Below are positions 6,275 through 47,068 of a stretch of 47,573 nucleotides of DNA, piece after piece; position 1 is the stretch's first letter; every line of letters begins with the position of its first letter. The notes beneath the pieces are model-generated. The model was given only the letters and a program-made list of their open reading frames with translations, was not told where the DNA came from and made no database searches. The stretch is from a virus, in IMG/VR virus record IMGVR_UViG_3300031951_000281, positions 1-47,573 of that record; one strand, 5' to 3'. The translations under genes and the position numbers were made by a program.

Positions 6275-6303
6275 TTGACTTTTTGTTGCATACCTTGTAT
6301 AAT
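6275..6303 (+). promoter_or_regulatory. Promoter of the HNH/portal unit
   Basis: TTGACT, a 17-base spacer, TATAAT. An AAGAAGG ribosome site follows before the ATG at 6335. Confidence 0.7.
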
Positions 6304-14611: not shown

Positions 14612-14640
14612 TTGACAAATTGTTGCCTGTGTGCTATAAT
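14612..14640 (+). promoter_or_regulatory. Consensus promoter of the tape-measure unit
   Basis: Perfect TTGACA, 17-base spacer, perfect TATAAT, with TGC before the -10 (extended). A leader of about 65 nt ends in TAGGAG before the ATG at 14707. Confidence 0.85.
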
Positions 14641-17700: not shown

Positions 17701-20700
17701 TTACGCGTAAGTATCGAAGAATCAAATGCTGCAGCTAACTTAGCACAAGCTAAAAGCGATAAGAGACCGCAAGAAGTAATAGAAAGACTAGAAGCAGCAC
17801 TGCTAGCATCACGTGGAATGTCCGCACTTCTAGGTCAATCAGGTACCCCAAATCTTACTGGTAGTGATAGTAATTTGGCTGCACGCGCTGGTGTAGAAGG
17901 CAATGCTGATGCACTTAGAATTTTAAAAAATCAAGTCTTAACTTTACGTGCACAACTTGGTGCACAACTTGCCTCACGTACTGAACAAGCCGGAGCTATG
18001 GAAGCCGCAGATATTACCGGTCAACGTGCAATACGTCAGGGACAATTACAAGATCTTGAAAGAACACAAAATCTTCAGCAAGCAATTCAAAAAGAAGAAT
18101 TAACAAGACTTGGTATTGTTAATTCTATAGCAGGCGTATCTTCAAGAGATTTTACTCTACAACAAAATGTTCTTGAAACTGCCCAGTTAATCAATCGCCA
18201 AAAACAAGAACAGCAGACCGCTGATCTGGCTATAGAAATTGCCAACGAAGGCGTTGCAAAGCAAAAACAAATAGAGTATAAACGTCTTATTACCTTAAGA
18301 CAGCAAGATGAACTTCGTAATCAAAGATTACAAGAGCGACAAAAATTATTACAAGCTGATTTAGATTTTATCGGTAGACGAGCTGAAGCAGAACGTTCTG
18401 CCGCTGAATTGCAAAACATACTTGCCCAAACTAGATTAGATGTTTCTGGACAAGAGTTAGCACTATATAGTTCCGCTTACGATATGTCCAAGCAAGTAGT
18501 AATTACTCAGCAAACAAATTTAGATATTCAGAAAGCTCAGCTAGAAACTAGTGCGGCGGTTGCTCAAGCAGAAGCTGCACTGCAAGTTAAAAGACAAGAA
18601 GCTCAGGCTCGTAAAAACGCTTTAACCGCAGAAGATATTGCTCAAGAAGCAGCTATTAATCTGGAACTAGAACGTCAAACTACGCTTACTGAAAACACCA
18701 TTGCTGGATTAAGAGCACAAGGTGATGCAAAAACCAATATATTGCAAAAAACTCGTGAAATTAACCTAGAACAAGAACGCTATAATTTGCTATTAGAAAA
18801 CAGCGGAAGATTAGCAGAAAGTTTAGGTACTATATTTGGTGATGTTGGAAGCAAGTTAGGTTCGTTAACAGAATTATTAACTAAAATTGCTATATCTACT
18901 GAGCAGGGTTCAAAAGCCTTGGAAAAGATTGGTAAAGATGCAGATGCTGCTTGGAGTTCTGGTAATATTGACCAAGCCATTCAACTAGAAAAAGATTACG
19001 AAGTACAAAAGAAAAAGAACGTTAGAACAGAATTAGACGGCAACATAAAAGCAATTAGCAGTACAAAAAATGTTTTCAAAGAAAAGACCTTTGCTTACAA
19101 AGCACTGGAAAAAGTTGAAAAGGTAATGCACATTTTCAGAATGACTTCTATGATAAAAGAAGTTGCTATGGACATTTGGAAAACAGGCAAAAGTGTAGCA
19201 AATAGTGCGATTCGTATTGGCAAAGCTGTAATAGAAGCAGGCGTAGACGGAGTCAAAGCTGTAGTTAAAGCTATTTCTAGTATGCCATTTCCGCTTAATA
19301 TTGCTGCGGGTGCGGCAACTGCCGCAGTTGTTAGTGGACTGTTAAGTCAAATCGGTGGTAAGGGTCCTAATTCCGGAGGTGGTGGAGGTAGTTTTGCACC
19401 AAGTGCAGAACAGCGCCAAGAAACTCAAGGCACTGCAATGGGTTACAATTCTAGCGGTGCCAAAATTCAAGTACGACGCGGAATATTTGGTGACACAGAC
19501 GCTAAATCGGAGTCAATTGCTAACTCACTAGTGATTCTAAAGGAAAATTCTGTAGACGGTTTAAGCTACAACAACCGCATGGTTGATTTGCTGGCTAGTA
19601 TTGATCGTGGTATTAATAATACTGCCAAAGGTCTATACGGTATTCAAGGCTTACGTTCAGGAAGCATGTTTGGTACTGTAACAGGATCTCAAACCGGTGG
19701 TGGATTTTTAGGCACCGGACTGTTTGGTAGTAAAACTTCGCGTAGTATTACCGACAGTGGTTTAATAATCGAAGGCACATTTGCACAATTAGCCAGCGAT
19801 ACTAACAAAGCAGTTATTGACTTTTTTGAGCAAGTAACTGTATCCAAGAGATCGTGGTATGGCAAAACCCGCACCTGGGTTGAAACGCAGCGAACAGAAA
19901 TTGACGATGCTACTTCAGAATTTTTCCAAGATATTTTCAGTAACGCTACTGAATTATTTATTGAAGTTGGAGCCAAAGCAGGTGTTGATGCCAGTGCAAT
20001 TAACCAAATTCTTGGCGGCATGGATGTTGGAAAGAACTTTACAAGTTTGCGCGGTTTAAAAGGTGAAGACTTTGAAAGGGAACTAAGCGCCGTTATCGGC
20101 ACTGTACTAGACGACGCAGCTTCTGCAATATTTAAAAGTTTTGAAGGTTTTGCTAAATTTGGCGAAGGTATGCTGGAAACAGTAGTGCGTGTTGTAGACA
20201 CAAATACCAAAATAAACCAACAAATTAAAAATATTGGCATAGATTCTACTGGGTTAAGTTTTGCAATAACTGAAACACTAGCTGAATTAGCTGGTGGCTT
20301 AGACAAATTCTTAGATCAATCTAACTTCTTCCGTGAAAACTTTTTAACTGAAGCCGAACGCTTGGCTCCAATTCAAAAAGCAGTAACAGCTGAAATGGCT
20401 AGACTGGGTTACTCAACTGTTGACACTCGTGAAGAGTTTAAACAATTAGTACAAAGCTTAGATCTAACTACCGACGCCGGTCGACAAAACTACCAAGCAC
20501 TAATGAATGTTGCTGATGGTTTTATAAAGGTAACAGCAGAAGCAGCTAAGCAAGCAGAGGAAGCTTCCAAACTAGCACAACAAGAAGCTGACGAGCGCAA
20601 AAACTTAGAGCAAAAATTATTTGAATTAACAGCAACACGCGAGCAATTGCGTGAACGTGAACTAGAAGGTTTGTTTGCTGGCAATCGCGAATTACAACGT

Positions 20701-21549
20701 GAAATTTGGTTAAGAGAAGATCAAGTTAATGCTGCAAAAGCATTACAAGCAAATTTAAAAGCTGTAACAAATACTATTAAGTCACAAGTACTAGCTCTTA
20801 AAGACTATAAAACTTCATTATTAAGTGGAGCCAATTCTACACTAACCGCTACTCAGCAATATCGTTTAGCTAAGTCAGAAGTAGAAGGTTTAGTAGCCAC
20901 TATTAGTAAGACAGCTACTACTCCAGAAGAAATAGAAGCTCGTAATATTGCATTAGGAAAACTAAGTTCAGTTAGCGATAAATTCTTGAACCAATCACGA
21001 AGTTTATTTGCTAGCGGCGCGCAGTATACAACTGACTTTAATACTATAATGAGTATTATTAACTCAGTTAGTGGCAGTTTAGAAAACCAGTTAACTGATG
21101 CTGAAAAGCAATTAGGAGCATTAGAAACTTCTAATAGCTATCTACAAAGTATTGATTCAGCAAGTAAAACTACTGCACAACTATTGCAAGCATATTTAAA
21201 TTTAGGCGGAACACCAATTACTACTCCAGGTTTTGCAGTTGGCACTAACTTCGTGCCGCAAGACATGGTTGCTCAAATCCATCGCGGCGAGCGTATTATT
21301 CCTGCTGCAGATAATTTGGAATTGATGTCGAGCATTGGCAATCGTAATAGAACCAATGAAGTACTAGTACTAGAAATCAAGAAACTAAATCAAAAAATAC
21401 AGTCACTAGAGCAAACTGTGGCACAAGGTGCTACTATGAATGCTCAAGCAACTGATCGCAATACAGCAGAAATTGCTCAAGCTGTTGTTGATAGTTCGGG
21501 CAAAGCTATACAAGCTAATAGGCTGCAGGCCAAAGCTGGTATAAGGTAA
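14707..21549 (+). CDS. Tape measure protein
   Basis: A 2280-residue protein, by far the longest here. Long coiled-coil stretches rich in Ala, Gln, Glu and Leu alternate with hydrophobic segments near residues 105, 300, 555-610 and 1535 (for example GVAMLIGVLGTLSAVVNG). A glycine-rich linker GGGGGSF follows at about 1560. The C-terminus has PGFAVGTNFVPQDMVAQIHRG, a motif common at tape-measure ends. It sets tail length and is ejected at infection. At about 1.5 angstrom per residue it predicts a tail near 0.34 micrometre, which is unusually long. It has its own promoter and a palindromic terminator. Confidence 0.95.
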   Translation: MATQNVNIGINVSDNGTAKKVVKSFQEITQAATQAQRAAQGINAPGGGTGGSRMVAARSAPTGSQRMMDNESYGSARGTAGLTGASARDFANQAQGLGGLVRLYATYAANVFAVSAAFTALSNAMDTTNMIRGLDQLGAATGRNLGGLSKRLVEITDGAISFKDSMDAVAKTTSAGMASRDVERLAMVAKNASLALGVAMPDAMNRLSRGITKLEPELLDELGIFTKIDPAVQAYSRAVGKAASQLTDFERRQAFANAVLLEGEAKFGELATAAVNPYDTLLASLKNVTQQALEVVNKVLTPMVSLLASSPGALAGALAVLGTVLLRQAIPALTEFKAGLASAADTATDLAKSKAEDAKAARARIDKDILAEVELRAAKEIDAVDAAEEKIRKLRKAGYKQDSLAAKLLAQDLDDIRNEDLAKQERVAKRLESRAKRLADDPTTDPQALRNAQRAAEANREVVTTLTAAKAAQQDYFDTEKRIITQTETAAKGRSIYGLTIQASLNAQDAATKKNIVSNAAYNASLIGMTGAFRLMNAEIAKSGLVLNFFQLGLLKAKAGVAMLIGVLGTLSAVVNGALGALGLVAAVVGVLDSVFSKGSKELDNFNSVLTKVDDAAANAARTLAHLDKKGGYASATIDGISAMANAFVELASSAKEAVDSATLALAKMSTWDRIKDNIFGFFGGGVANNLAKALTKDVTSALDLLTKAGLDKEAREKFKAILGVDSLDTESVNKAILKLSDSAKNNLVTALSEANVALNNSQSRLQSFKAATEGTTKAYQDFIVSTANTNPIFRVGSNLENLGKTMETLATGSIQEMEAAMISLAESPQQGLLFGGDFSSQLVALRKGFLDQKAAVTAYENQLKELDKQIEVTSARMDELREGTQARTLAGMELSQLKKDRDFLSKEINLLPREKIAEARDLFNKGMDNAFKEGSRLISVGLGQAAEKAALTIAKANLGGLTGEQLAREQLALNKRDIEIQIRAIDTSIGLILSQERLRVSIEESNAAANLAQAKSDKRPQEVIERLEAALLASRGMSALLGQSGTPNLTGSDSNLAARAGVEGNADALRILKNQVLTLRAQLGAQLASRTEQAGAMEAADITGQRAIRQGQLQDLERTQNLQQAIQKEELTRLGIVNSIAGVSSRDFTLQQNVLETAQLINRQKQEQQTADLAIEIANEGVAKQKQIEYKRLITLRQQDELRNQRLQERQKLLQADLDFIGRRAEAERSAAELQNILAQTRLDVSGQELALYSSAYDMSKQVVITQQTNLDIQKAQLETSAAVAQAEAALQVKRQEAQARKNALTAEDIAQEAAINLELERQTTLTENTIAGLRAQGDAKTNILQKTREINLEQERYNLLLENSGRLAESLGTIFGDVGSKLGSLTELLTKIAISTEQGSKALEKIGKDADAAWSSGNIDQAIQLEKDYEVQKKKNVRTELDGNIKAISSTKNVFKEKTFAYKALEKVEKVMHIFRMTSMIKEVAMDIWKTGKSVANSAIRIGKAVIEAGVDGVKAVVKAISSMPFPLNIAAGAATAAVVSGLLSQIGGKGPNSGGGGGSFAPSAEQRQETQGTAMGYNSSGAKIQVRRGIFGDTDAKSESIANSLVILKENSVDGLSYNNRMVDLLASIDRGINNTAKGLYGIQGLRSGSMFGTVTGSQTGGGFLGTGLFGSKTSRSITDSGLIIEGTFAQLASDTNKAVIDFFEQVTVSKRSWYGKTRTWVETQRTEIDDATSEFFQDIFSNATELFIEVGAKAGVDASAINQILGGMDVGKNFTSLRGLKGEDFERELSAVIGTVLDDAASAIFKSFEGFAKFGEGMLETVVRVVDTNTKINQQIKNIGIDSTGLSFAITETLAELAGGLDKFLDQSNFFRENFLTEAERLAPIQKAVTAEMARLGYSTVDTREEFKQLVQSLDLTTDAGRQNYQALMNVADGFIKVTAEAAKQAEEASKLAQQEADERKNLEQKLFELTATREQLRERELEGLFAGNRELQREIWLREDQVNAAKALQANLKAVTNTIKSQVLALKDYKTSLLSGANSTLTATQQYRLAKSEVEGLVATISKTATTPEEIEARNIALGKLSSVSDKFLNQSRSLFASGAQYTTDFNTIMSIINSVSGSLENQLTDAEKQLGALETSNSYLQSIDSASKTTAQLLQAYLNLGGTPITTPGFAVGTNFVPQDMVAQIHRGERIIPAADNLELMSSIGNRNRTNEVLVLEIKKLNQKIQSLEQTVAQGATMNAQATDRNTAEIAQAVVDSSGKAIQANRLQAKAGIR

Positions 21550-26397: not shown

Positions 26398-26426
26398 TTG
26401 ACAATGCCATGCCCTTGTGGTATAAT
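26398..26426 (+). promoter_or_regulatory. Promoter of the adhesion gene cluster
   Basis: TTGACA, 17 bases, TATAAT preceded by TGG: a full consensus extended -10 promoter. The leader of about 120 nt contains a second TTGACA at 26461 but no matching -10. AGGAG precedes the first gene at 26552. Confidence 0.85.
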
Positions 26427-33606: not shown

Positions 33607-36159
33607 ATGAGCATTTTAAAATTAAAGCCGTACAGCTTAGACCAAGCGGCGGAATATACTTTTGGTAGTATTACAGTTACCGGTCTAAGCAACCTGGGTA
33701 ACCTAAGCAACATTGTAATTGCTGACGGTACGACAGGTCAAACCGTAATCAAAAACGCACTAGGTGGATTAACTTGGACTACACCTTTTAGTGGCAGTTA
33801 CAACGATCTAACAGACAAGCCAACGCTTACTGTAGGCCCAACAGGTCCCACAGGCCCTATTGGGGCTACTGGAGCTGCAGGCCCCACAGGTGCACAAGGC
33901 ATACAAGGTGTGCAAGGCGTTGTTGGCCCAACAGGGCCGCAAGGCGTACAAGGATCACAAGGCGATACCGGAGCACAGGGTGCTCAAGGTCCAACAGGCC
34001 CACAAGGCATTCAAGGCACAGCAGGCCCAACAGGTACACAAGGTATTGTTGGTCCAACAGGCACACAAGGTGTTGCAGGTCCAACAGGTGCTCAAGGTGA
34101 ACAAGGAATTCAGGGTACGCAAGGTGTAGTAGGCCCCACAGGTGCTCAAGGCATTCAAGGTATCCAAGGCGTACAAGGTGCTGTTGGTCCCACAGGTGCT
34201 CAAGGCACACAAGGTGCTCAAGGTGAAACAGGTCCTACAGGTGCTCAAGGAGCACAAGGCATAGCAGGTCCTACAGGTCCAACAGGTGCTCAAGGTATTC
34301 AAGGTGACACAGGTCCAACAGGTGCAGCCTCTACTATAGCTGGTCCTACAGGTCCACAAGGTGCACAAGGTCCACAAGGTGTTTCAATTAACTTGCAAGG
34401 TGAAGTAGCAAACGTAGCCAGCTTACCTGCAACCGCTAGTTTAAACGATGCATACATTGTATTAGCTGATGGTAATTTATGGGTTTGGAATGGCAGTGGT
34501 TGGACAGATGCTGGTCAAATTGTTGGACCACAAGGTCCAACAGGTGCAGCCTCAACCGTAGCCGGTCCAACAGGTGCACAAGGTGTTGCAGGTCCTACAG
34601 GACCAACAGGTGCTCAAGGTATTCAAGGTGACACAGGTCCAACAGGTGCACAGGGTACGCAAGGCGTCGCAGGCCCAACAGGCCCACAGGGCACACAAGG
34701 TGCTCAAGGAGTTCAGGGCCCAACAGGTGCACAGGGCATTGAAGGCATTCAAGGGCCACAAGGCGTAGCAGGTCCAACAGGTGCCCAAGGAGCTGTCGGA
34801 CCTACAGGAGCACAAGGTGCTAATGGTACCAGTGTTACACTAAAAGGCTCTGTGAGTCTTGTAAGTGACTTAAATTCAATCTCATCACCCCAGCAAGGCG
34901 ATTTATATGTTGTTTTAGACGATGGAAACGGTTACGTTTATAGTGGCTCTAGCTGGAATAGTGTAGGTGCTATTAGAGGTCCACAAGGGCCAACAGGCAC
35001 ACAAGGTGTTGCAGGTCCTACAGGACCAACAGGTGCTCAAGGTATTCAAGGTGACACAGGTCCAACAGGTGCACAAGGCATACAAGGCACACAAGGTGCT
35101 CAAGGCACACAAGGTATTCAAGGCGTCGCAGGCCCAACAGGTGCACAAGGTGATGTAGGTGCTCAAGGCGTTGCAGGGCCAACAGGTGCTCAAGGTGCAC
35201 AGGGTATTCAAGGCGTTATTGGCCCAACAGGCCCGCAAGGTGCCCAAGGTTCCGCAGGTGCTCAAGGTGATACAGGTGCAGCAGGTCCCACAGGACCAAC
35301 AGGTGCACAGGGTGTTCAGGGTGATCAAGGAGTTGCAGGCCCTACAGGAGCGCAAGGTATTCAAGGTGCTGCAGGTCCAACAGGGCCCCAAGGCATACAA
35401 GGCATCCAAGGTGTTCAGGGAACACAAGGCGTCGCAGGTCCAACAGGTGCACAGGGTATTCAAGGTTTAACAGGTGATCAAGGTGTAGCAGGACCAACAG
35501 GAGCACAAGGCGTTGCAGGTCCAACAGGTGCTCAAGGTGATCAAGGTGCAGCAGGTCCAACAGGTCCAACAGGTCCAGGAAGCACTGTGGCAGGACCTAC
35601 AGGCCCTACGGGTGCTCAAGGTATAGCAGGTCCAACAGGTCCAGGAAGCACTGTGGCAGGACCTACAGGCCCAGCAGGCAGTGGCAGCTCAACGCTATCT
35701 ACATTAACTGATGTTGACTTAACCACCGCAGCCACAAACGGCCAAGCACTAGTATACGATACTACATCCAGCAAGTGGAAACCTGGCAGCGTTGCTACTT
35801 TAGCCGATACACAAACTTTAACCAACAAAACTCTTACAAATGTTGTGTTTGATGGTAACTACACTGAAGAAGTGTTTACCATCACTGATGGTGCTTCGGT
35901 AGATTTAAACCCATCCAACGGCACCGTTCAGCTGTGGACGCTAGCAGCCAGTAGAAGTCCTACAGCAACGAACTTTGCTTCAGGTCAGTCTATGACTTTG
36001 ATGATTGATGATGGTGCGGCTTATGCCATCACATGGCCTTCGGTAACGTGGGAAACTAATGGGGGTCTTTTACCACCACTTAGTACTACTGGTTATACTG
36101 TAATACAATTATGGAAAGTCGGTACTGTTTTATACGGTGCACGAGTAGGAGACGCTTGA
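33607..36159 (+). CDS. Collagen-like tail fibre 2
   Basis: An 850-residue protein. A beta N-terminal segment ending LTDKPTL leads to Gly-X-Y tracts with two inserts, about 258-300 ([20 protein letters not shown]) and about 413-457 ([19 protein letters not shown]), that are homologous to each other. The C-terminal about 150 residues form a globular knob starting [25 protein letters not shown] precedes the start. The stop overlaps the next propeller gene as TGATG, repeating the layout of the 29726/31972 pair. Confidence 0.87.
33832..35690 (+). repeat. Collagen-type tandem repeats 2
   Basis: Imperfect 9- and 18-base repeats like those at 29890-31665. Several long near-identical stretches recur within it and between the two collagen genes, giving substrate for recombination between fibres. 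Confidence 0.85.
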
Positions 36160-38213
36160 TGCTTGCTACAAAAATAAGAGCTGCTGCTGCAACGGGATCA
36201 GCTCTGTCCTCTACTCCACAAACGTTGGTAGTAGCCCACGCCAATTCTCCATTTATTACCGCCTACTCTTGGGGTCCAAGTGGGTTTGGTGCAACATATT
36301 CTAGCCCTGGCACTCTTCCAACAGGCATTGGCAACGGCGTAGCGTTCAGTCCTGACAATGCTGCTATTGCTGTAGCACATAGCACTACTCCCTATATCTC
36401 TGTGTATCCTTGGTCAAGTTCTGGTTTTGGTACAAAATATGCCAATCCCACTACACTTCCTAGCGGGATTGGCAACGGTGTAGCGTTCACCCCCGACGGA
36501 AATGCTATTGCTGTAGCACACAACACTACTCCCTATATCTCTGCATATCCTTGGTCAAGTTCTGGTTTTGGCACAAAATATGCCAATCCCACTACGCTTC
36601 CAGCAGGCACTGGCAACGGTGTAGCGTTCAGCCCTGACGGAAATACTATTGCAGTGGCTCAAATCACTACTCCCCGTATCACCGCCTACCCCTGGTCAAG
36701 TTCCGGGTTTGGTACAAAGTACGCCGACCCGGCCACGCTTCCTCCAGCCAGCGGCAGCGGTGTAGCCTTCAGTCCTGACGGAAATGCTATTGCTGTGGCT
36801 CACGAGATTACTCCTTTTATCTCTGCCTATCCATGGTCGAGTTCTGGTTTTGGCACAAAATATGCCAATCCAGCCACGCTTCCTGCAAGCGTCGCCTGGA
36901 GTGTAGCGTTCAGCCCTAACAGTGCTGCTATTGCTGTTGGCCATAATTTGTCTCCTTTTATTACCGCCTATCCTTGGAGTAGTTCCGGGTTTGGTACAAA
37001 GTATGCCAATCCCACCACGCTTCCAACAGGCAACGGCCTTGGAGTAGCGTTTAGTTCTGACGGGTTGAATATTGCTGTAGCTCAAGGCAATGGTTCTCCT
37101 TTTATTTGTGCCTATCCTTGGAGTAGTTCCGGGTTTGGAACAAAATATGCCAATCCTGCCACGCTTGCCACAGGTGCTGGCAACGCAGTGGCGTGGAGCA
37201 CTGTGGGCAGTGTGCAATATCCGCAGTACATAGCTGTGGCCCACACTACTAGCCCTTTTCTTACCACCTACCTCTGGTCAGACAATGGCTTTGGCACAAA
37301 GTATGCCAATCCCGCCGCCCTTCCAGCAGGCACTGGCAGGGGAGTAGCGTTCAGTCCTGATGGGGCGAGCATTGCAGTAGCGCACTCTACGAGCCCTTTT
37401 GTTACCGCCTACCCCTGGTCAGGGTCTGGTTTTGGTACAAAGTATTCGAATCCAGCCACTCTTCCGACAAGCAATGCAACCGGAGTGGCGTTCAGTCCTG
37501 ATGGGGCGAGCATTGCAGTAGCGCACTCTACGAGCCCTTTTGTTACCGCCTATCCATGGTCAAGTTCTGGTTTTGGCACAAAATATGCCAATCCCACTAC
37601 GCTTCCAGCAGGCAACGGCAACGGTGTAGCGTTCAGCCCTGACGAAAATGCTATTGCAGTGGTTCACGATACTACTCCCTATATCTCTGCCTATCCTTGG
37701 AGTAGTTCTGGTTTTGGTACAAAATATGCCAATCCCTCCACTTCTCTACCAAACACAAGCAGGGGAGTGGTGTTCAGTCCTGATGGGGAGAGCATTGCAG
37801 TAGCGCACGCTACGAGCCCTTTTGTTACCGCCTACCCCTGGTCAGGGTCTGGTTTTGGTACAAAGTATGCCAATCCCACCACCCTTGCAAACTCGGGCAA
37901 CGGAGTAGCGTTCAGTCCTGATGGGGCGAGCATTGCAGTAGCGCACTTTACGACTCCGTTTATCACCGCCTATCCTTGGTCAGGGGCTGGTTTTGGTACA
38001 AAGTACGCCGACCCGGCCACTCTCCCGGCCAGCACAGGTAACGGAGTAGCCTTCAGTCCTAGCGGGACAAGTATTGCAGTAGCGCACTCTACGACTCCCT
38101 TTATCACCGCCTATCCTTGGTCAGCTTCCGGTTTTGGAGCAAAATATACCAATCCAGTCTCTCTTCCAACAGGCATTGGCAACGGCGTAGCGTTCACGCA
38201 AATCATTTCTTAA
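36159..38213 (+). CDS. Beta-propeller fibre-tip candidate 2 (14 repeats)
   Basis: A 684-residue protein, start MLATKIR. After about 20 residues it consists of 14 repeats of about 45 residues, IAVAHSTTPFITAYPWSSSG / FGTKYANPTTLPxGxGNGVAFSPDG. Fourteen is exactly two seven-bladed rings. The last repeat lacks the closing PDG-type end, fitting closure by the N-terminus. Repeats are highly alike at DNA level, which suggests recent expansion. Coupled by TGATG to collagen-like fibre 2. The longer ORF start at 36111 overlaps the fibre and is rejected. Ligand unknown. Confidence 0.7.
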   Translation: MLATKIRAAAATGSALSSTPQTLVVAHANSPFITAYSWGPSGFGATYSSPGTLPTGIGNGVAFSPDNAAIAVAHSTTPYISVYPWSSSGFGTKYANPTTLPSGIGNGVAFTPDGNAIAVAHNTTPYISAYPWSSSGFGTKYANPTTLPAGTGNGVAFSPDGNTIAVAQITTPRITAYPWSSSGFGTKYADPATLPPASGSGVAFSPDGNAIAVAHEITPFISAYPWSSSGFGTKYANPATLPASVAWSVAFSPNSAAIAVGHNLSPFITAYPWSSSGFGTKYANPTTLPTGNGLGVAFSSDGLNIAVAQGNGSPFICAYPWSSSGFGTKYANPATLATGAGNAVAWSTVGSVQYPQYIAVAHTTSPFLTTYLWSDNGFGTKYANPAALPAGTGRGVAFSPDGASIAVAHSTSPFVTAYPWSGSGFGTKYSNPATLPTSNATGVAFSPDGASIAVAHSTSPFVTAYPWSSSGFGTKYANPTTLPAGNGNGVAFSPDENAIAVVHDTTPYISAYPWSSSGFGTKYANPSTSLPNTSRGVVFSPDGESIAVAHATSPFVTAYPWSGSGFGTKYANPTTLANSGNGVAFSPDGASIAVAHFTTPFITAYPWSGAGFGTKYADPATLPASTGNGVAFSPSGTSIAVAHSTTPFITAYPWSASGFGAKYTNPVSLPTGIGNGVAFTQIIS
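36220..38200 (+). repeat. About 135-base tandem repeats of the propeller gene
   Basis: Fourteen copies of an about 135-base unit. Some neighbouring units share long identical stretches (for example around 37370 and 37500, and 37790), a sign of recent duplication or gene conversion. Confidence 0.85.
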
Positions 38214-39031: not shown

Positions 39032-40087
39032 ATGAAAATCGCAGTTTACGCAATATCAAAAAATGAAGAACAATTTGTTGAGCGCTTTTGCCACAGTGCA
39101 AAAGACGCAGACTATGTTGTAATTGCTGACACAGGATCAACAGATCGCACAGTAGAATTAGCACAGCAAATGGGTGCACAAGTGCACCAAATTTCAATTA
39201 AACCCTGGCGGTTTGATCGTGCACGAGATGCTGCACTAGCACTGGTTCCTGGCGATGCAGATGTTTGTATTAGCTTAGACTTGGACGAGGTCTTAGAACC
39301 TGGCTGGCGAGCCGAAATTGAACGTGTGTGGAAGTCCGATACCACACGACTGCGTTATAAATTTGACTGGGGCAGTGGTATCAGTTTTTACTACGAAAAG
39401 ATTCACCACCGTATTGGTTACCACTGGCATCACCCTTGCCACGAATATCCAGTGCCGGATGCACGCACACAAGAAGTGTGGGCACACACGGATATGTTGT
39501 TGGTAACACACCACCCAGACAACACCAAGTCACGTGGTCAGTATCTTGACTTATTACAACTGGCTGTTACCGAAGACCCACACTGCCCACGCAATGCCTT
39601 TTACTACGCACGTGAATTAAGCTTTTATAAGCACTGGCAGCAAGCAATTGATGAGTGCAATCGTTACTTAAAGCTGCCTGCAGCAAACTGGAACAATGAA
39701 CGTGCTTATGCATATCGCGTTATGAGTGACTGTTATAGTGCACTTGGCGATGTGGGTGCGGCACTCAAGCATGCACGACTCAGCTGTTGTGAAGCACCCG
39801 GCACTCGTGAGCCTTGGGTAACACTAGCCATGTTGTGCTATCAAACCCAAAACTGGCCTGAATGCTATGCAGCAGCAAAAAATGCGTTGAGTATTGTCAA
39901 CAAAGAGCTGGTGTACACAATGGACCCTAAAGTGTGGACAGCACTGCCACACGACTTGTGTGCAATCAGTGCATACTACCTGGGTTTGAATGCCGAAGCA
40001 CTGCAACAAGTTGAGCTGGCACTAACACACGAACCACACAACCCACGATTGCTGCAAAATTATCAGGTGTTCAAAGGACAAGTATGA
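39032..40087 (+). CDS. GT2 glycosyltransferase with C-terminal TPR-like repeats
   Basis: A 351-residue protein. The GT-A domain starts MKIAVYAISKNEEQFVERFC, with ADTGSTDRT at 32-40 (nucleotide-sugar binding) and the metal-binding DLD at 83-85. From about residue 190 helical pairs (ALGDVGAALKHARLSCCEAP, then NAEALQQVELALTHEP) look like TPRs. It would transfer a sugar from a nucleotide donor. Targets could be virion proteins, phage DNA or host glycans; none is shown. Own promoter; no Shine-Dalgarno. Its stop overlaps the next small ORF (ATGA). Confidence 0.85.
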   Translation: MKIAVYAISKNEEQFVERFCHSAKDADYVVIADTGSTDRTVELAQQMGAQVHQISIKPWRFDRARDAALALVPGDADVCISLDLDEVLEPGWRAEIERVWKSDTTRLRYKFDWGSGISFYYEKIHHRIGYHWHHPCHEYPVPDARTQEVWAHTDMLLVTHHPDNTKSRGQYLDLLQLAVTEDPHCPRNAFYYARELSFYKHWQQAIDECNRYLKLPAANWNNERAYAYRVMSDCYSALGDVGAALKHARLSCCEAPGTREPWVTLAMLCYQTQNWPECYAAAKNALSIVNKELVYTMDPKVWTALPHDLCAISAYYLGLNAEALQQVELALTHEPHNPRLLQNYQVFKGQV

Positions 40088-40250: not shown

Positions 40251-40676
40251 ATGAAAGCACATATGTTTTGGATTTTTAAATTCACACCAGATTTTTTCTG
40301 GTATCTACTTCCACTTCTAGGGCTAGTCTCACTGGGCTTAGCCCGTGTGAGACTGCTGTATGCCTACAAAACTCCACTAAATATTGGTGGCACAGTGGTG
40401 TTGGCACTAGGACTGTTTGTGTTAGGCATGCTGTATGCAGATAATACCTGGCAGCAGGCTGCCAGGGAACTGCAAGCCAAAGTCGAAGTTGCTGAGGCTA
40501 AATCGCAGGTAATCAATGAAGTTGTCAAAGAGAAGTTGGTAACACAAACCAAAATTATTCGTCAGCGTGGTGAAGAAACTGTTAGGTACATTGACCGTGA
40601 GGTAGTTAAACTGGACGAACGTTGTACAATTCCACCAGAGTTTGTAAATGCACATAATAAGGCAGCTACACGATGA
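40251..40676 (+). CDS. Inner-membrane spanin-like protein (i-spanin/Rz-like)
   Basis: A 141-residue protein with two hydrophobic segments (about 13-32 and 45-63) followed by a coiled coil (about 65-115) that would face the periplasm. Classical i-spanins have one N-terminal helix; the extra segment could add holin-like activity. The next gene is a short lipoprotein, overlapping by four bases, the usual i-spanin/o-spanin pair. Translation may start at 40251 or at 40263; no strong ribosome site is free. Confidence 0.7.
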   Translation: MKAHMFWIFKFTPDFFWYLLPLLGLVSLGLARVRLLYAYKTPLNIGGTVVLALGLFVLGMLYADNTWQQAARELQAKVEVAEAKSQVINEVVKEKLVTQTKIIRQRGEETVRYIDREVVKLDERCTIPPEFVNAHNKAATR

Positions 40677-40939
40677 AAATTATACTACTTAGCTTAACAC
40701 TGTTACTAACTGGTTGCACCACAGTTGTGCCAGTTCAACAAACTTGGCCCGAGCCGCCAGGCTTGCAAAGCATGCAACGGTGTCCCGAACTCAAACAGCT
40801 TGAAGCTAACCCCAAGCTCAGTGATGTTGCCCGAACAGTTACACTCAACTACTCAGAGTACTACAGCTGCTTGGTTAAACTAGAAGCCTGGCAGGAGTGG
40901 TATAGCAAGCAACAAATTATCTTTAAAGGACTAAAGTGA
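40673..40939 (+). CDS. Outer-membrane spanin lipoprotein (o-spanin/Rz1-like)
   Basis: An 88-residue protein with a signal peptide and lipobox LLTGC, lipidated cysteine at residue 15, followed by Pro-rich sequence (PVQQTWPEPPG), as in Rz1. It would span to the i-spanin and fuse the two membranes at lysis. Overlaps the upstream gene as ATGA and the endolysin as GTGA. It is longer than many Rz1 proteins. Confidence 0.75.
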   Translation: MKIILLSLTLLLTGCTTVVPVQQTWPEPPGLQSMQRCPELKQLEANPKLSDVARTVTLNYSEYYSCLVKLEAWQEWYSKQQIIFKGLK

Positions 40940-41562
40940 CTCAACTAACTTTACCCCAACTACAGCAATTGATTCCTAAAAATCCTTATGTCAAGCAGTG
41001 GCACGGTGCGCTAGCTCAGCTGCTTCCTGACTACGAAATCAATACACCACAACGTATTGCTGCTTTTGTTGCACAGTGTGCACACGAGTCTGGTAATTTT
41101 ACTGCACTGCGTGAAAACTTAAACTACAAGGCGGTGACACTTCGCAAGATTTTTCCCAAGTACTTTCCCACAGATGAGCTGGCACAGCAGTATGCCAGCA
41201 GACCTGACAAGCAGCAGGCAATTGCAAACTTAGTATACGCCAACCGCATGGGCAACGGACCTCCAGAAAGTGGCGATGGCTGGCGTTTTGCTGGCAAAGG
41301 ATTAATTCAGCTTACAGGCCGTGACAACTATACTTGGTTTGCAGCTAGCCTGGAGATTAGTGTTGAAGAGGCTGCTGAATACTTAGAAACCTTTGAAGGT
41401 GCTGCACAGTCAGCTTGTTGGTTTTGGGAAACAAACAAACTTAATACGTGGGCTGATCGTGGCGATATCTTAACACTAACCAAACGCATCAACGGTGGTA
41501 CTATTGGTTTAGATGACAGGATCAAGCACTACAATCATGCACTGCATGTGCTAGGAGTTTAA
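40936..41562 (+). CDS. Endolysin, GH19 (chitinase-like) glycosidase
   Basis: A 208-residue protein with the GH19 signature: CAHESGNF (catalytic E51 candidate), a second acidic residue in ALRENLNY (E60), then FAGKGLIQLTGRDNY and KRINGGTIGLDDRI. GH19 endolysins cut the glycan strands of peptidoglycan. No signal peptide, so a holin must release it. Start is GTG at 40936, overlapping the lipoprotein stop. Confidence 0.92.
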   Translation: MTQLTLPQLQQLIPKNPYVKQWHGALAQLLPDYEINTPQRIAAFVAQCAHESGNFTALRENLNYKAVTLRKIFPKYFPTDELAQQYASRPDKQQAIANLVYANRMGNGPPESGDGWRFAGKGLIQLTGRDNYTWFAASLEISVEEAAEYLETFEGAAQSACWFWETNKLNTWADRGDILTLTKRINGGTIGLDDRIKHYNHALHVLGV

Positions 41563-41563
41563 A

Positions 41564-42649
41564 ATGGTTAAAACGGTTTTAGCAGGTTTGCTTATTTTTA
41601 CTATCAGTGGAGCAGGTGCTCAAACTTTAATTAACCAAGGAAGTTACGACTCCAAAACACTGGTAGATACCAACTCTACCAGTGTTTCTACCAGTACTGT
41701 AAATACCACAAACACAACAAACAGCACTAGCACTGCTACAAGTAATTCGACTGTAAACAGCACAAATACAAACAACAATACATCAACAAGCACAAACACA
41801 AACAACAACATTCAAAGCGGTACTGTTACAAATAACAACAATAATGTTAATTCAGGAACAGTTACCTACAACAACAATAATGTTAACAGTGGAACGCTTA
41901 CTTACAACAACAATAACAACAGTACGTCAACTAATACAAACCACAACATTAATAGTGGAACTATGACGTACAACAATAACAACGTCAGTACCTCTACAAA
42001 CACAAACAACAATCACAACACCGGCGATATGACAAATCGCAACATTAATACAACCACTAGCACAAACAACAATATTCAGTCAGGTTCGCTAACCAACATC
42101 AACCAAAACACCAGTGCTTCAACCAGCACAAACACCAACAACAATACAAACACCAGCACAGCGGTAAATCAAAACATTCAGTCGGGTGAAATGACCAACC
42201 GCAACATAAACGACACTAACATCACGCAACGTGTTATACAGCCACCACCAACTGCTATAGCCCCAACAATGATGAGTGGTGGCAATGCAGATCTTTGTAC
42301 AACCGGCACGTCGGGTTCAATACAAACACAAATTTTTGGTGTAAGTGGCGGTGGTACTGTGCGTGACTTAAACTGCGAGCGTTTAAAACTGTCAAAAACT
42401 CTTTACGACATGGGCATGAAAGTAGCGGCTGTGGCTACAATGTGCCAAGATCGTCGTGTATGGGATGCAATGCAAGCAGCCGGCACACCTTGTCCGTATG
42501 AAGGCCGTATCGGTGAACAAGCTCGTGAACTGTGGAATCAAAATCCACACAAAGTACCACAATTGGAAAAACCGGAGAAACTAGATGCAACTGCTAAAAA
42601 ATTGGGTATTGGGGCTTTGTTGGGCATTGTTGTGCATAAGCTATTCTAA
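41564..42649 (+). CDS. Secreted Asn/Thr-rich repeat protein with conserved C-terminal domain
   Basis: A 361-residue protein. A signal peptide (MVKTVLAGLLIFTISGAGAQ) is followed by about 200 residues of near-repeats with NNNN runs and SGTVTYNNNN-type units. From about 235 a compact domain with four cysteines follows (CTTGTSG, VRDLNCERLKLSKTLYDMG, MCQDRRVWDAMQAAGTPCP). That domain recurs in proteins of aquatic phages, to my recollection, without assigned role. The repeats could form a beta-solenoid or fibre at the cell envelope. TAGGAG precedes the ATG. The last 65 bases overlap the next gene. Confidence 0.65.
   Translation: MVKTVLAGLLIFTISGAGAQTLINQGSYDSKTLVDTNSTSVSTSTVNTTNTTNSTSTATSNSTVNSTNTNNNTSTSTNTNNNIQSGTVTNNNNNVNSGTVTYNNNNVNSGTLTYNNNNNSTSTNTNHNINSGTMTYNNNNVSTSTNTNNNHNTGDMTNRNINTTTSTNNNIQSGSLTNINQNTSASTSTNTNNNTNTSTAVNQNIQSGEMTNRNINDTNITQRVIQPPPTAIAPTMMSGGNADLCTTGTSGSIQTQIFGVSGGGTVRDLNCERLKLSKTLYDMGMKVAAVATMCQDRRVWDAMQAAGTPCPYEGRIGEQARELWNQNPHKVPQLEKPEKLDATAKKLGIGALLGIVVHKLF
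41690..42225 (+). repeat. AAC/ACA-rich tandem repeats encoding poly-Asn units
   Basis: The plus strand is dominated by AAC, AAT and ACA triplets with recurring about 45-base units. The strand is purine- and C-rich with little T in places. Prone to slippage. Confidence 0.75.
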
Positions 42650-44216
42650 CTCGCAAGTATTAGAACCAGGTGTAACCTACGCCACACCAGATATAACAAA
42701 TAACTCAGCTTGGTTTGGGGCCGTGTATCAGCAAAACTTAACGTGCTGGCGTGCTGGTGATCCAGGCTACTGTGGTCCGCAACCAATTGTGCGACCAGGC
42801 GGAAATATTAACTTTAGCTATGGCAGCAGCTATACTTTCCAGCAACATAATCCCAGTACATTTTTACCACAAGCCACAGGCCTGCAAGTAAGTGGTTTTA
42901 ATTTTAGTTTTACAGCCAAAAACGGCAATGGCTGGGACGACGGCAGAACAGATCAATTAACCGCACTGGTACGCTTTTGGGATACCACTGGTGGCCGTGG
43001 CGTAAACAATGTGCTTTACCGTACAGAGTATAACTTAAACTACAAGTTTAACTGGACAAACTTTAACTATTCCGAAACGTTTACGCAACCACTTAATGCA
43101 AGTAGCATAGGCACTGTGCAGTACGGATTTATTGGTCGTGACAACAACGGCTGGATGGGACCATACGGTCCTGAAATCAACAATGTGCAGTTTAACTTAC
43201 GTTACAGCGTTGACCCTTGTGTGGCAAACCCACTACACGCACCAACTTGCTCAGGCTACTTAGCTGCACTAGCACAACTAGCACCTAAACCTGTGCCCCA
43301 AGCAGCAGTCAGTGAACCAACACCTGCGGCTGTACAGCCGGTTGCAGAACAAACAGCTGCCACACAACAAACCGCACCTCAAGTTGCAGCAACCACAACA
43401 ACAGCACCAGCAACAGTGGTAAGCGCAACACCAACAGCATCACCAACACCAGTGGCTTCGGAAAGAACCAGCAGTGGTGGAGGTAACCTAAGTTTAGCAC
43501 TTAATTTAATTAGTCGCAATGCCGAACGCGAACGTGGATTTCAGCAACAAGCAGTAGCCAGTGCCACAACCGAAGCACAAGCCGCAGGCGATCGTGCATT
43601 AACAGTAGGCAGTGCCACAAGCAGCACCAGCAGTAGTGCTAGTTTAAGTAGTGAGGCAGGCACTAATACACAAGTAACACAGGCTGCACAAACCAGCACG
43701 CAAACCCAACAAAGCACCGCTGCTGCCACAACCGTTCAGGCAGTTACAACAAACACACAACAGCAAGCCACACAACAAGTTGCTGCCCAACAGTTATTGG
43801 CACCTGTTACTCAGGAACTTCAGCAAACTCGTCAAACTCAGAGTTTTGGTACGCAAACACAGTCCACACAAGACATAGACTTGCCACAGCAGCTAGCAGG
43901 CTTTATAACAGACAGTGCTAACCCACTTCGTGAAATGCTGCTACCACCACAACAGTCTGCACAACCACAAGCAGAAGCACGACCACTTAATCGAGGTGTG
44001 GAAAACAACTCAGCAGCAGGTGGTGTTGGTTTAGAAGGTTTAATGGCTGTGCCACAAAATTACGCATCTTACACACAATTGGTGTTACGGGATGCACCAG
44101 GTTATCCACCACGAGAAGTTTACCGTGGTCAAACGGTTGTTGATAACCGTCAAGCTTTACGCGGTTTAGGGTCTGATCGTAAGCATCAAGACTTAGTAAA
44201 CTTGCAATATAAATAG
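42585..44216 (+). CDS. Secreted beta-domain protein with Gln/Thr-rich tail
   Basis: A 543-residue protein. Signal peptide (MQLLKNWVLGLCWALLCISY), a globular beta domain to about 215 (CWRAGDPGYCGPQPI, NGNGWDDGRTDQLTALVRFW, VQFNLRYSVDPC), then about 270 residues of Ala/Gln/Thr/Ser-rich low complexity, and a conserved-looking end (PREVYRGQTVVDNRQALRGL). I recall relatives in aquatic phages, uncharacterised. The first 65 bases, coding the signal peptide, overlap the preceding gene in another frame; GGAG eight bases before the ATG supports this start. Possibly a periplasmic or virion-surface protein. Confidence 0.65.
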   Translation: MQLLKNWVLGLCWALLCISYSNSQVLEPGVTYATPDITNNSAWFGAVYQQNLTCWRAGDPGYCGPQPIVRPGGNINFSYGSSYTFQQHNPSTFLPQATGLQVSGFNFSFTAKNGNGWDDGRTDQLTALVRFWDTTGGRGVNNVLYRTEYNLNYKFNWTNFNYSETFTQPLNASSIGTVQYGFIGRDNNGWMGPYGPEINNVQFNLRYSVDPCVANPLHAPTCSGYLAALAQLAPKPVPQAAVSEPTPAAVQPVAEQTAATQQTAPQVAATTTTAPATVVSATPTASPTPVASERTSSGGGNLSLALNLISRNAERERGFQQQAVASATTEAQAAGDRALTVGSATSSTSSSASLSSEAGTNTQVTQAAQTSTQTQQSTAAATTVQAVTTNTQQQATQQVAAQQLLAPVTQELQQTRQTQSFGTQTQSTQDIDLPQQLAGFITDSANPLREMLLPPQQSAQPQAEARPLNRGVENNSAAGGVGLEGLMAVPQNYASYTQLVLRDAPGYPPREVYRGQTVVDNRQALRGLGSDRKHQDLVNLQYK

Positions 44217-44224
44217 GAGTTATT

Positions 44225-44803
44225 ATGGCACAAGACTTAAACAAAAAAGTAGATGAGCTAGAAGCTGCTGCCAAGCAGTACGCAAGCAAAGATACTGTTA
44301 TTAGTATTGGAGGCTACGAATTTACTCCTGCTAAACTAATGGTAGCCTTTACACTGGTAAGTTCACTACTAGGCGGTCTTTATGGTGCTTTTGAAGTCTA
44401 CAAAGACTATCAAAACATGAAAAAGAAAATTGCAGCCTACGAAGCACCGGACTTATCAGAGTTTGACAAGCGTTTAGCAGTTATTGAAGAAAACTCGTCA
44501 AAAACAACAGACTATACACGCGACATTAAAAATGATCTAAAAACCGATATCCGCAGAAACGAATCAGTAACAGAGCAAGTCGAGCGTAGTGTAAAGCAAG
44601 CACAGCGTGAAACTGAAGCTGAAATGCGTCAAGCACGTAAAGACGTTCGTGAAGACTTAGACAAAGCAAGAACAGAAGTCAATGCCATCCGCAAAGAAAT
44701 GGCTGACGCTCGCCGTGAAATATCTCGTGAAGTTGAAACACTTAAAAAAGAAGTTGACAACAAAATACAAAAAGCCATTGATAACCCACTAGCAGGTAAA
44801 TAA
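44225..44803 (+). CDS. Membrane protein with long C-terminal coiled coil
   Basis: A 192-residue protein: one hydrophobic segment (LMVAFTLVSSLLGGLYGAFE, about 38-57) and then about 110 residues of highly charged coiled coil (ETEAEMRQARKDVREDLDKA). AGGAG precedes the ATG. The stop overlaps the next gene as TAATG. It may form a rod at the membrane or partner with the next protein, which has a C-terminal membrane helix. No function known. Confidence 0.6.
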   Translation: MAQDLNKKVDELEAAAKQYASKDTVISIGGYEFTPAKLMVAFTLVSSLLGGLYGAFEVYKDYQNMKKKIAAYEAPDLSEFDKRLAVIEENSSKTTDYTRDIKNDLKTDIRRNESVTEQVERSVKQAQRETEAEMRQARKDVREDLDKARTEVNAIRKEMADARREISREVETLKKEVDNKIQKAIDNPLAGK

Positions 44804-45309
44804 TGGATCCACTAGCACTAATAGCAACGGTAAATGCAACTTTTAACGGTGTAAAAAAATTAGTGGCTGTTGGCAGAGAAGCCCAAGATGTAATGAAGCA
44901 ACTTGGCAAGTGGGCAGATGCCGCTTCTCAGCTACACGGATACATTAATAAACACGAAACACGTAAACCTGGTATATTTGAGAAAATAGGTTTTAAAGGT
45001 TCAGAAGGATCGGAAGCTCTAGATATAATGGCTGCGAAGCAGCGATTAAAAACTATGGAAGCTGAGATTTATCATATGTTCTTATACGGAGAACTTCAAG
45101 ACTTAGGTTCTGCTGGCTACAGCGAATTTGTTCAGTTGCGAAAAAAGATTCGTGAAGACAGAGAAAAAGCACTGCGAGACCAAGCTCGTAGAAGACTAAA
45201 ATTTATAGAAAACAGTTTTGCAGCACTAATTGTAAGCACATTTTTAGCAGTATCTATTTATTTTAGTGTGGTAATATATGATCTTGGTAAACAAGCCGGC
45301 AAATGGTAA
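44803..45309 (+). CDS. Helical protein with C-terminal membrane anchor
   Basis: A 168-residue protein. A helical soluble part (ATFNGVKKLVAVGREAQDVM, then KQLGKWADAASQLHG) is followed by a basic stretch and a single C-terminal membrane helix (FAALIVSTFLAVSIYFSVVI). Tail-anchored topology is unusual among phage lysis proteins. Coupled to the upstream membrane coiled-coil gene by TAATG. Function unknown. Confidence 0.6.
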   Translation: MDPLALIATVNATFNGVKKLVAVGREAQDVMKQLGKWADAASQLHGYINKHETRKPGIFEKIGFKGSEGSEALDIMAAKQRLKTMEAEIYHMFLYGELQDLGSAGYSEFVQLRKKIREDREKALRDQARRRLKFIENSFAALIVSTFLAVSIYFSVVIYDLGKQAGKW

Positions 45310-45319
45310 AGGAATATAA

Positions 45320-45589
45320 ATGAATCATGACTTAAGATTGTTTAAATGGCTAGGGTTACTAATTATACTACCTGTAGCACTAGCTTTTTTTGGAGGAGAC
45401 CGTTTTCGTTATCCTTGCCAAAACCCAGAAAACTGGGATACACCCCAGTGCAAGCGACCAATTTGCGATGTAACACGCACTTGTCCAGACCATGTGTTTA
45501 AAGGCCAACGCGACCCAAGACTTGACCCGCAAGCCACACCAACCTCACCAACCCCAACCACAACTTCAGGAGTAGCCTGTGGAAAATAA
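45320..45589 (+). CDS. Small membrane-anchored Cys-rich periplasmic protein
   Basis: An 89-residue protein with an N-terminal hydrophobic segment (WLGLLIILPVALAFFGG) and a following region with four conserved-looking cysteines (RYPCQNPENWDTPQCKRPIC, then DVTRTC). A Pro/Thr-rich tail follows. The cysteines suggest disulfides in the periplasm. No lipobox is evident. The end overlaps the next gene by 11 bases. Role unknown. Confidence 0.6.
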   Translation: MNHDLRLFKWLGLLIILPVALAFFGGDRFRYPCQNPENWDTPQCKRPICDVTRTCPDHVFKGQRDPRLDPQATPTSPTPTTTSGVACGK

Positions 45590-46034
45590 TAACTCGATAT
45601 TATATACCGACGACCAGTTAATGGCTCGTTTAAAGTTTTTTATAGGCATTTGCTTAGCCCTTACACTAACAGGTATTGTATTTGTTGTGCTTTACTCACT
45701 TATTTTTGTAACACAACCACTAAACGCTATTTCACCAATTGATCAAAAGTTCTTTGAATTAATTGTGCCTATTGCTACATTTTTAACTGGTACACTAAGT
45801 GGTATTATGTTAGCTGGTGGCAGCAAAGAAGAAGTTGATGCCAGTATTGCACTAATGAAGCAAGCGCAAGAAAATGCGGCTGCAGCAGCTAAAACAAGTT
45901 ATGTGCCAAAACAAGAACCTACATTTAATCCCGGCTTTTCTACTACACCAGGATTTAATGGCACAACCACAGCAGAAATACGTTTTATAAATGGTAAGCC
46001 TGCACCTCAACAAGCCCCACAACCGGAGATTTAA
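45579..46034 (+). CDS. Two-helix membrane protein, holin candidate
   Basis: A 151-residue protein beginning at GTG 45579, with AGGAG six bases upstream. Two membrane segments (FFIGICLALTLTGIVFVVLY about 18-37, and FFELIVPIATFLTGTLSGIM about 58-77) are followed by an Ala/Pro-rich tail. Two helices with a soluble C-terminus suit a class II-like holin, and no other clear holin is present. However, it is 4 kb from the endolysin, so the call is tentative. Confidence 0.5.
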   Translation: MENNNSILYTDDQLMARLKFFIGICLALTLTGIVFVVLYSLIFVTQPLNAISPIDQKFFELIVPIATFLTGTLSGIMLAGGSKEEVDASIALMKQAQENAAAAAKTSYVPKQEPTFNPGFSTTPGFNGTTTAEIRFINGKPAPQQAPQPEI

Positions 46035-46235
46035 ATGAAACAACCACTAATTGTGTTAGCAACAGTTTTATGCTTATTGGCGCCACCAACAGTTTTTGCT
46101 GCCGCAGAAACCAAACGTGTATGTGTTGATCAGGTAGATCCTAAAACAAAGCAAGTAAAAGAAGTTTGCAAAACCATTACTGTACATAAAAAGCTAGAAG
46201 GTACGCCAGTGCCGCCACCAAAACAGGGTAAATAA
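46035..46235 (+). CDS. Small secreted protein with paired cysteines
   Basis: A 66-residue protein with a signal peptide (MKQPLIVLATVLCLLAPPTV, then FAAAE, cleavage likely after Ala). The mature part is a short basic segment with CVDQVDPKTKQVKEVC and a Pro-rich end. The two cysteines may form one disulfide. It starts directly after the preceding stop and is the last gene before the PhoH promoter. Function unknown. Confidence 0.6.
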   Translation: MKQPLIVLATVLCLLAPPTVFAAAETKRVCVDQVDPKTKQVKEVCKTITVHKKLEGTPVPPPKQGK

Positions 46236-46243
46236 ATTTTTAT

Positions 46244-46272
46244 TTGACACCTAAGACACGGGGTGGTATAAT
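46244..46272 (+). promoter_or_regulatory. Consensus promoter of the PhoH unit
   Basis: TTGACA, 17 bases, TATAAT with TGG before it. The leader contains AAGGAAG ahead of the ATG at 46313. No terminator is seen before it. Confidence 0.85.
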
Positions 46273-46312: not shown

Positions 46313-47068
46313 ATGGCAAGAAATAGTGGTAAATCACATCGCACCTTTCCAGCAAAAAAGTCTAGCAGACCTTCTCAAGAAGAAAAGTCTAGGCTGCGTC
46401 AAAGTAAGCAAGAGGGTTTTGAAGAGCCCCAGCCTCAACGTAACTACTCTTTTAAAGAAGTTCAACCACTAAACTTCGTACAAGGAGAATATCTAGATGC
46501 GATTGAGAACAATGACGTTATATTTGGAATAGGAAGTGCAGGCACTGGTAAAACTTATATTGCAGCTAATTATGCTGCCAGAGAACTATACTACAAACGA
46601 GTTGATAAAGTTATTTTAACCAGACCAAACATTGAAACTGGTAGAGGGCTTGGGTTTTTACCAGGCACGCTGGAGGAAAAGTATGCTCCTTACTTGTTGC
46701 CTTTTGATGCAATTTTTACAAAAGCATTAGGCAAAGGTTTTTATGAGTACTGCTTAAAGGCAAAAGATATAGACCCTACTCCACTGGGATTTTTGCGCGG
46801 CACTACGTTTGACAACTGCATTGTGTTAGTAGATGAAGCACAAAACTGCACACGTGAAGAAATGAAAATGCTGCTTTCACGTATTGGCAAAAACTGCAAA
46901 ATGATTTTTTCAGGAGATACTGAGCAAAGTGACATTCCGGATAGCGGTCTTGAAGACGCAGTTGAGCGACTAGAAGGTATTGACGGCATTGAAGTCGTAG
47001 AATTCTTGGACGAAGACATTGTACGATCAAAGATGTGTAAACAAATTATTATGGCTTATAGAAATTAA
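46313..47068 (+). CDS. phoH: PhoH-like ATPase
   Basis: A 251-residue protein. After a basic N-terminus, Walker A GSAGTGKT is 74-81 and Walker B VLVDEAQN is 171-178; RPNIETGRGLGFLPGTLEEK is the typical PhoH middle. PhoH proteins are P-loop NTPases, common in aquatic phages, with suggested roles in RNA or phosphate stress that are not settled. The start at 46313 has a good ribosome site; a longer frame from 46244 would begin inside the promoter. Confidence 0.92.
   Translation: MARNSGKSHRTFPAKKSSRPSQEEKSRLRQSKQEGFEEPQPQRNYSFKEVQPLNFVQGEYLDAIENNDVIFGIGSAGTGKTYIAANYAARELYYKRVDKVILTRPNIETGRGLGFLPGTLEEKYAPYLLPFDAIFTKALGKGFYEYCLKAKDIDPTPLGFLRGTTFDNCIVLVDEAQNCTREEMKMLLSRIGKNCKMIFSGDTEQSDIPDSGLEDAVERLEGIDGIEVVEFLDEDIVRSKMCKQIIMAYRN

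Follow-up and report, generated by a model that had tools for sequence, protein, structure and literature searches.

Among described phage systems, the type VIII secretion (curli) modules of pelagiphages are cassettes of exported proteins, with a repeat-rich exported protein among them, that have moved between distant SAR11 phage families, and an effect on the surface of the infected cell has been proposed for them (PMC9599517). The two-component spanins Rz/Rz1 (PMC6139136) and the class II holins and antiholins, together with the two-transmembrane-domain lysis proteins of actinobacteriophages (LysF1a, PMC13056207), are the other systems to be compared here. We analysed a 47.6 kb virus record of a freshwater phage with a siphophage-like gene set, IMGVR_UViG_3300031951_000281 (the whole stretch is called the window below), and found that seven consecutive plus-strand genes at 41564–46235, named g1 to g7, comprise two conserved, never-described blocks: block I, consisting of g1-g2-g3 and often g4, and block II, consisting of g5-g6. 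Block I resembles the curli modules in being a multigene exported cassette with a repeat-rich exported protein, but its proteins and its neighbours are different. Literature searches returned no description of the g1–g7 module. Relatives were collected in two IMG/VR scans seeded with the g2 head and with g6, yielding 159 related loci whose gene order was mapped with hidden Markov models; loci within each scan are related and the counts are not independent.

A preliminary description of this DNA had assigned a signal peptide or a membrane helix to all seven products, and hydropathy analysis confirmed an N-terminal hydrophobic core or membrane helix in 7/7. Under the same simple hydropathy labels, the rest of the plus strand has just one such gene in the structural region besides those of the two spanins, and shuffling of the 38 labels (the tape-measure protein was left out) gave a run of at least seven labelled genes with a P of about 2.7e-4. 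The tight spacing and overlaps described earlier were likewise borne out, the intergenic distances from the endolysin to g7 being +1, -65, +8, -1, +10, -11 and 0 bp. The out-of-frame overlap of g1 and g2, 65 nt in the window, measures 65–74 nt in 82 of 91 loci, and together with the spacing this supports translation of g1–g7 as one unit. Pairwise ratios of nonsynonymous to synonymous substitution (dN/dS) against relatives were below 0.35 for g1–g7, short genes included, wherever dS was unsaturated, indicating purifying selection; since the g1/g2 overlap is also kept, we regard g1–g7 as real genes. A DNA-level search of phage records gave no match, and profile scans of g1–g7 with Pfam, NCBIfam and PADLOC found nothing specific, the matches of g3 being coiled-coil noise.

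Block I opens with g1 (41564–42649, 361 residues), which has a signal peptide, Asn/Thr/Ser-rich repeats, a helical four-Cys domain and a short hydrophobic C-terminus, and belongs to phrog_20531, a family of unknown function. Its Asn-rich repeats have a period of 12 residues, and its length varies among relatives. The Cys domain aligns with 41 invariant columns and is predicted by AlphaFold2 to be a small helical bundle (predicted local distance difference test, pLDDT, about 80 in the core), for which Foldseek found no significant match. Homologues in Hyphomonadaceae chromosomes share with g1 the signal peptide, the Asn-rich repeats and the Cys domain, but they are single genes, with no g2 or g3 beside them in the loci read, and one of them ends in a peptidoglycan-binding OmpA domain (Pfam E 2e-16). 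Single genes that combine Asn-rich repeats with this Cys domain were seen in Hyphomonadaceae and in other alphaproteobacterial chromosomes (L357–L373). A short motif resembling half of the Cys domain also occurs in the o-spanin-like lipoprotein encoded upstream of g1 in phages of the CRP-810 type (L166:5552-5812, L385:5801-6016).

The second protein, g2 (42585–44216, 543 residues), carries a signal peptide, a head domain, a long Gln/Thr-rich tail and, at the C-terminus, the conserved motif HxxLVxxQY. A full-length g2 protein search of phage records gave no match, while AlphaFold2 confidently predicted the head to be a beta-sandwich (pLDDT 84). The best Foldseek matches of the head were the N-acetylglucosamine-binding FBS1/FBS2 domains (FBS1, E 9e-6), followed by CBM61 (6e-4), CBM16, an alginate-binding module and the phloem lectin PP2, and a weak profile match also hinted at a carbohydrate-binding fold. 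Identity to the FBS, CBM and PP2 domains is 10–15 percent, and g2 differs from them in being exported by a phage and in having a long tail. By predicted fold, then, the g2 head resembles a carbohydrate-binding module or lectin, and this fold and the OmpA-fused homologue of g1 point to the periplasm and the cell wall. The C-terminal motif HxxMVxxQY was present in 85 of 100 g2 proteins, in 19 of 22 copies of b1, and in only 1 of 2733 other open reading frames (ORFs), that one being g2 of HTVC115P; b1 is a short g2, as the profile comparison of freshwater g2 with b1 succeeded (91 percent). Next comes g3 (44225–44803, 192 residues), with one N-terminal membrane helix, a long coiled coil and the C-terminal sequence NPLAGK. 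A C-terminal NPL was found in 116/116 g3 proteins and 46/47 marine g3 equivalents, as against 5/7034 other ORFs, two of which occupy the g3 position in CRP-810 and in a spring-water phage. The facultative member g4 (44803–45309, 168 residues) consists of an N-terminal soluble domain and one C-terminal membrane helix, its positive-inside charge placing the N-terminus in the cytoplasm; relatives occur in Roseobacter phages such as CRP-1 to CRP-7 and in Limnohabitans phage DC31.

In relatives, g1-g2-g3 behaves as one block, often followed by d1-g4-d2, and it is also found far from lysis genes. The g1 Cys domain matched proteins of Pelagibacter phages HTVC115P, HTVC202P, HTVC023P, HTVC033P, Baldr and Mosig, of Roseobacter phages CRP-207 and CRP-810, and of spring-water phages. 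In the cultured phages that we read, the gene after g1 encodes a large exported protein (annotated in one case as 'putative carbohydrate binding'), and behind it lies the gene for a membrane coiled coil with NPL, or a variant of it, at the C-terminus; the trio of HTVC023P is gp45, gp46 and gp48. The complete trio occurred in order in all 32 loci of the marine scan with at least 3.5 kb downstream, and in 58/58 sufficiently long loci of the CRP-810 scan, in 47 of which g5-g6 comes next. The CRP type has the order g1-g2-g3-g5-g6-endolysin. Its endolysin, of the GH19 type, is encoded no more than 1.5 kb from g6 in 43/43 loci, and a spanin-like pair, a transmembrane/coiled-coil protein plus a lipoprotein, lies upstream of g1 in 60 of 76. 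An M15 endolysin lies near block I in half of the marine loci, and an exported Peptidase_S11 D,D-carboxypeptidase is encoded within 5 kb of block I in 10 of 17 T4-like freshwater loci (after g3 in L053, L058, L061, L067, L068, L073 and others). Among phages of known host, block I turned up with diderm hosts only. Across 56 loci that extend from the endolysin to phoH, the cargo between the endolysin and g5 was g1-b1-b2-b3-b4-g3 (20 loci), d1-g4-d2 (11), g1-g2-g3 (6), none (2) or one of many other forms. The overlap of g1 with b1 measures 62–65 nt in 22/22 loci. In L081:5027-7150 and its relatives, g2 is replaced by the four small exported genes b1–b4, each with a signal peptide and without a recognised family of known function; a pilin/chaperone reading of b2 and b3, suggested by their appearance, was dropped as neither gave any profile or PDB match.

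Block II begins with g5 (45320–45589, 89 residues), a small periplasmic protein with an N-terminal anchor and the motif RYxCQxPxNW, whose alignment has 12 invariant positions, four of them Cys; actinobacteriophages, DSL-LC01 for example, encode it as a lipoprotein. Its partner g6 (45579–46034, 151 residues; phrog_25359) has two membrane helices joined by a conserved loop, FVTQP..D..FF. Profile searches with g5 and g6 found no solved relatives. A scan from g6 of Actinomycetia phage DSL-LC01 recovered 80 more loci, in 73 of which g5 precedes g6; the remaining 7 contigs begin too near g6 to judge, so that g5 and g6 are paired in 73/73 and form an obligate pair. In 34 of 47 loci the pair has, no more than 2.5 kb away, a holin-family gene (phrog_443), an endolysin of the VanY or GH25 type, or both, and the g1 motif is absent from these DSL-LC01-seeded loci. 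Actinobacteria are monoderm and lack an outer membrane, and the presence of g5-g6 in their phages means that block II does not need one. As a small two-helix membrane protein encoded in a lysis cassette, g6 has the build of a class II holin, and like those holins, the antiholins and LysF1a it has two helices and is encoded between or beside endolysin and holin genes. It differs from them in having an obligate four-Cys partner and no holin-family sequence match (phrog_25359 is of unknown function, and neither Pfam nor NCBIfam returned a holin). In relatives, g5-g6-g7 comes after the spanins and endolysin whether or not block I is present. The last gene, g7 (46035–46235, 66 residues), encodes a small secreted protein with a signal peptide and two Cys; it is confined to close relatives and, like d1/d2, looks like a loose local addition.

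These distributions do not agree with the earlier suggestion that the seven genes build a single machine, as g1-g2-g3(-g4) and g5-g6 each occur without the other in whole lineages, g7 is restricted and the cargo is swapped. The run falls into two separable blocks, yet the distant CRP-810 lineage keeps g1-g2-g3-g5-g6-endolysin together in 47/58 loci. Two distant lineages have the blocks next to each other in one and the same order, and other lineages have them apart; as the order is shared with this Roseobacter-phage lineage, the union is not accidental. The synteny check showed members travelling as blocks, not singly and scattered. The conjecture of a conserved, undescribed envelope module in aquatic phages was thus upheld by strong synteny, which extends over IMG/VR loci numbering in the hundreds and over cultured phages that infect SAR11, Roseobacter and other hosts.

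Our preferred reading, to which we give a probability of roughly 45%, is that g1–g7 make up the downstream half of a late operon for lysis and the envelope, an accessory apparatus of which block I would act in the periplasm or outer envelope and block II would work at the inner membrane. The operon would run from the i-spanin through the o-spanin and the endolysin to g1–g7. Upstream of g1 on the same strand lie an i-spanin-like gene (40251–40676; two hydrophobic helices and a coiled coil, phrog_4952 'signal peptide motif', directly upstream of the o-spanin in relatives), the o-spanin lipoprotein (40673–40939; lipobox LLLTGC, Rz-like spanin phrog_456 and phrog_812) and a GH19-like endolysin (40936–41562; phrog_181, E 3e-75). 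An i-spanin usually has a single helix; this candidate carries a further membrane helix at its N-terminus. In the model that we propose, Sec would export g1 and g2 into the periplasm, where the lectin-like head of g2 may bind a glycan of the envelope, peptidoglycan being the simplest candidate, and the tail of g2, long and flexible, would present the conserved C-terminal hook. The repeat stalk and four-Cys helical domain of g1 would bridge outward, and g3 would be the coiled-coil anchor in the inner membrane, with its conserved NPLA tip. Such a g1-g2-g3 tether across the envelope might hold or weaken the envelope during virion maturation and might aid failure of the outer layers once the endolysin and spanins act, while the inner-membrane pair of disulfide-rich periplasmic g5 and two-helix g6, with its holin/antiholin build, could set the timing of lysis.

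Gene content and order, conservation, domain build and the neighbourhoods of lysis genes and peptidoglycan enzymes are observed, and from there we infer the binding partners, the tether and the lysis role. Peptidoglycan or lysis genes near the blocks in each lineage support a role in lysis, and among the window ORFs scanned there was no other clear holin. That g5-g6 occurs without g1 in phages whose actinobacterial hosts are monoderm agrees with g5-g6 acting at the inner membrane and g1–g3 in the outer envelope. Compared with two-component spanins, block I is alike in its lysis neighbourhood, in the membrane-anchored coiled coil of g3, which recalls an i-spanin, and in a presumed tether across the periplasm; it differs in having three exported parts and the NPLA tip, and a separate spanin pair is already present in the window. 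There is no lipobox in g1, g2 or g4, and the o-spanin of the window is a separate gene.

Several observations weigh against this lysis/envelope reading. Relatives with spanins, endolysin and g5-g6-g7 but no g1–g3 exist, which means that block I is dispensable for lysis and should therefore tune lysis or alter the infected envelope. In 30 freshwater T4-like loci, block I adjoins DNA polymerase on the opposite strand and not lysis genes. Searches of PHROG, Pfam and NCBIfam placed none of the members in a family with an established role in lysis, and a separate holin-family gene beside g5-g6 in actinobacteriophages means that g6 need not be the holin there. The fold matches of the g2 head are modest, with TM-scores of about 0.4. 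Freshwater and marine g2 heads and g3 proteins could not be aligned by profile comparison, and their proposed equivalence instead draws on gene order, architecture and C-terminal motifs. Finally, the opposite topology proposed earlier for two membrane coiled-coil proteins agrees with the charge flanks of g3 and g4 in freshwater phages, but the flanks of marine g3 give the reverse; all topologies are predictions from charge and hydropathy only.

It is doubtful, though conceivable, that g1-g2-g3 is an undescribed trans-envelope machine, which would add to holin-endolysin-spanin a third type of apparatus for lysis or exclusion, common to SAR11, Roseobacter and freshwater phages including the very abundant HTVC023P type. 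Phages that carry the trio, HTVC023P among them, infect some of the most abundant bacteria on the planet, and since cultured phage–host pairs exist, its function can be tested now. A role in lysis would give oligotrophic phages a larger set of envelope parts than the holin-endolysin-spanin scheme provides, and a role in exclusion would make it a common weapon in the competition among aquatic phages.

Exclusion, lysis control and virion exit had all been offered before; none is proved, and the association with lysis has the most genomic support. Superinfection exclusion, in which exported proteins of block I, perhaps with block II, would coat or cross the infected envelope and stop adsorption or DNA entry of competitors, is a close second, because the cargo is portable and variable and sits with replication genes in T4-like phages, even if we think it rather unlikely. 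The opposite-strand site in those phages suggests independent, possibly earlier expression, and the cargo between the fixed genes is accessory. Also compatible with exclusion are the exported genes added in the g1-b1-b2-b3-b4-g3 variant, the exported, repeat-rich and length-variable g1, and the general build of g5-g6, which as a lipoprotein with a membrane partner recalls known exclusion lipoproteins. However, the genes sit with late lysis genes in three lineages, g5-g6 stays in holin/endolysin surroundings, and the PADLOC models matched nothing beyond the coiled-coil noise of g3. Considerably less probable is that g1-g2 forms an adhesin or fibre on the surface, through which infected cells or debris would become sticky and progeny would more easily reach new hosts, by analogy with the pelagiphage curli modules. 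The 12-residue period of the Asn-rich repeats, the lectin-like g2 head and the published transfer of curli modules between phage families (PMC9599517) would suit such a function, whereas CsgG was found in 0/32 records (positive controls were detected; some records are fragments) and curlin repeats (PF07012) in 0/32, no outer-membrane exporter was recognised in the block, and the OmpA fusion of a cellular g1 homologue suggests the periplasm. We hold it improbable that these proteins belong to the virion or build a structure for its exit: the neighbourhood is late and a coiled-coil protein could be structural, but tailed virions are assembled in the cytoplasm, from which signal peptides direct g1, g2 and g7 away, the cluster adjoins lysis genes and not head or tail genes, and no structural PHROG match rose above coiled-coil noise. 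A chance run of unrelated exported genes, to which the seemingly loose additions g7 and d1/d2 might belong, is very improbable given the shuffling test, the strict co-occurrence and order in distant phages and the purifying selection.

At its downstream end the run is bounded by a sigma-70-type promoter (46244–46272, plus strand), a perfect TTGACA-17-TATAAT with 12/12 consensus positions and an extended -10 element, 8 bp past the g7 stop and directly after g7 in many relatives as well. Since the promoter occupies 46244–46272, phoH (46313–47068, plus strand; Pfam PhoH, E 8e-66) probably starts near 46313, as its position relative to the promoter implies, and not at the TTG at 46244. The conserved promoter after g7 further indicates that phoH is probably transcribed separately, outside the exported unit; the earlier placing of the genes between lysis and PhoH is therefore right as to position, and phoH, with its own promoter, is not a member. 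Four perfect or near-perfect TTGACA-17-TATAAT sites occur in the window (46244–46272, 26398–26426, 14612–14640 and 6275–6303), against 0.37 expected, and apparently punctuate the transcription units of the phage.

The remainder of the window encodes terminase (4902–6188), head protease/major head protein (7974–9902), major tail protein (12582–13718), tape measure (14707–21549), and collagen-like and repeat fibres up to 38.2 kb, after which come a beta-1,4-glycosyltransferase, i-spanin, o-spanin, endolysin, g1–g7 and phoH. The protein at 36111–38213 contains a 141/282-bp tandem repeat at the DNA level, with 6.6 copies of 282 bp, and is likely a repeat-rich fibre or propeller. Immediately before the spanins, the beta-1,4-glycosyltransferase-like gene (39032–40087; phrog_13126, E 2e-99) possibly encodes a modifier of the host surface.

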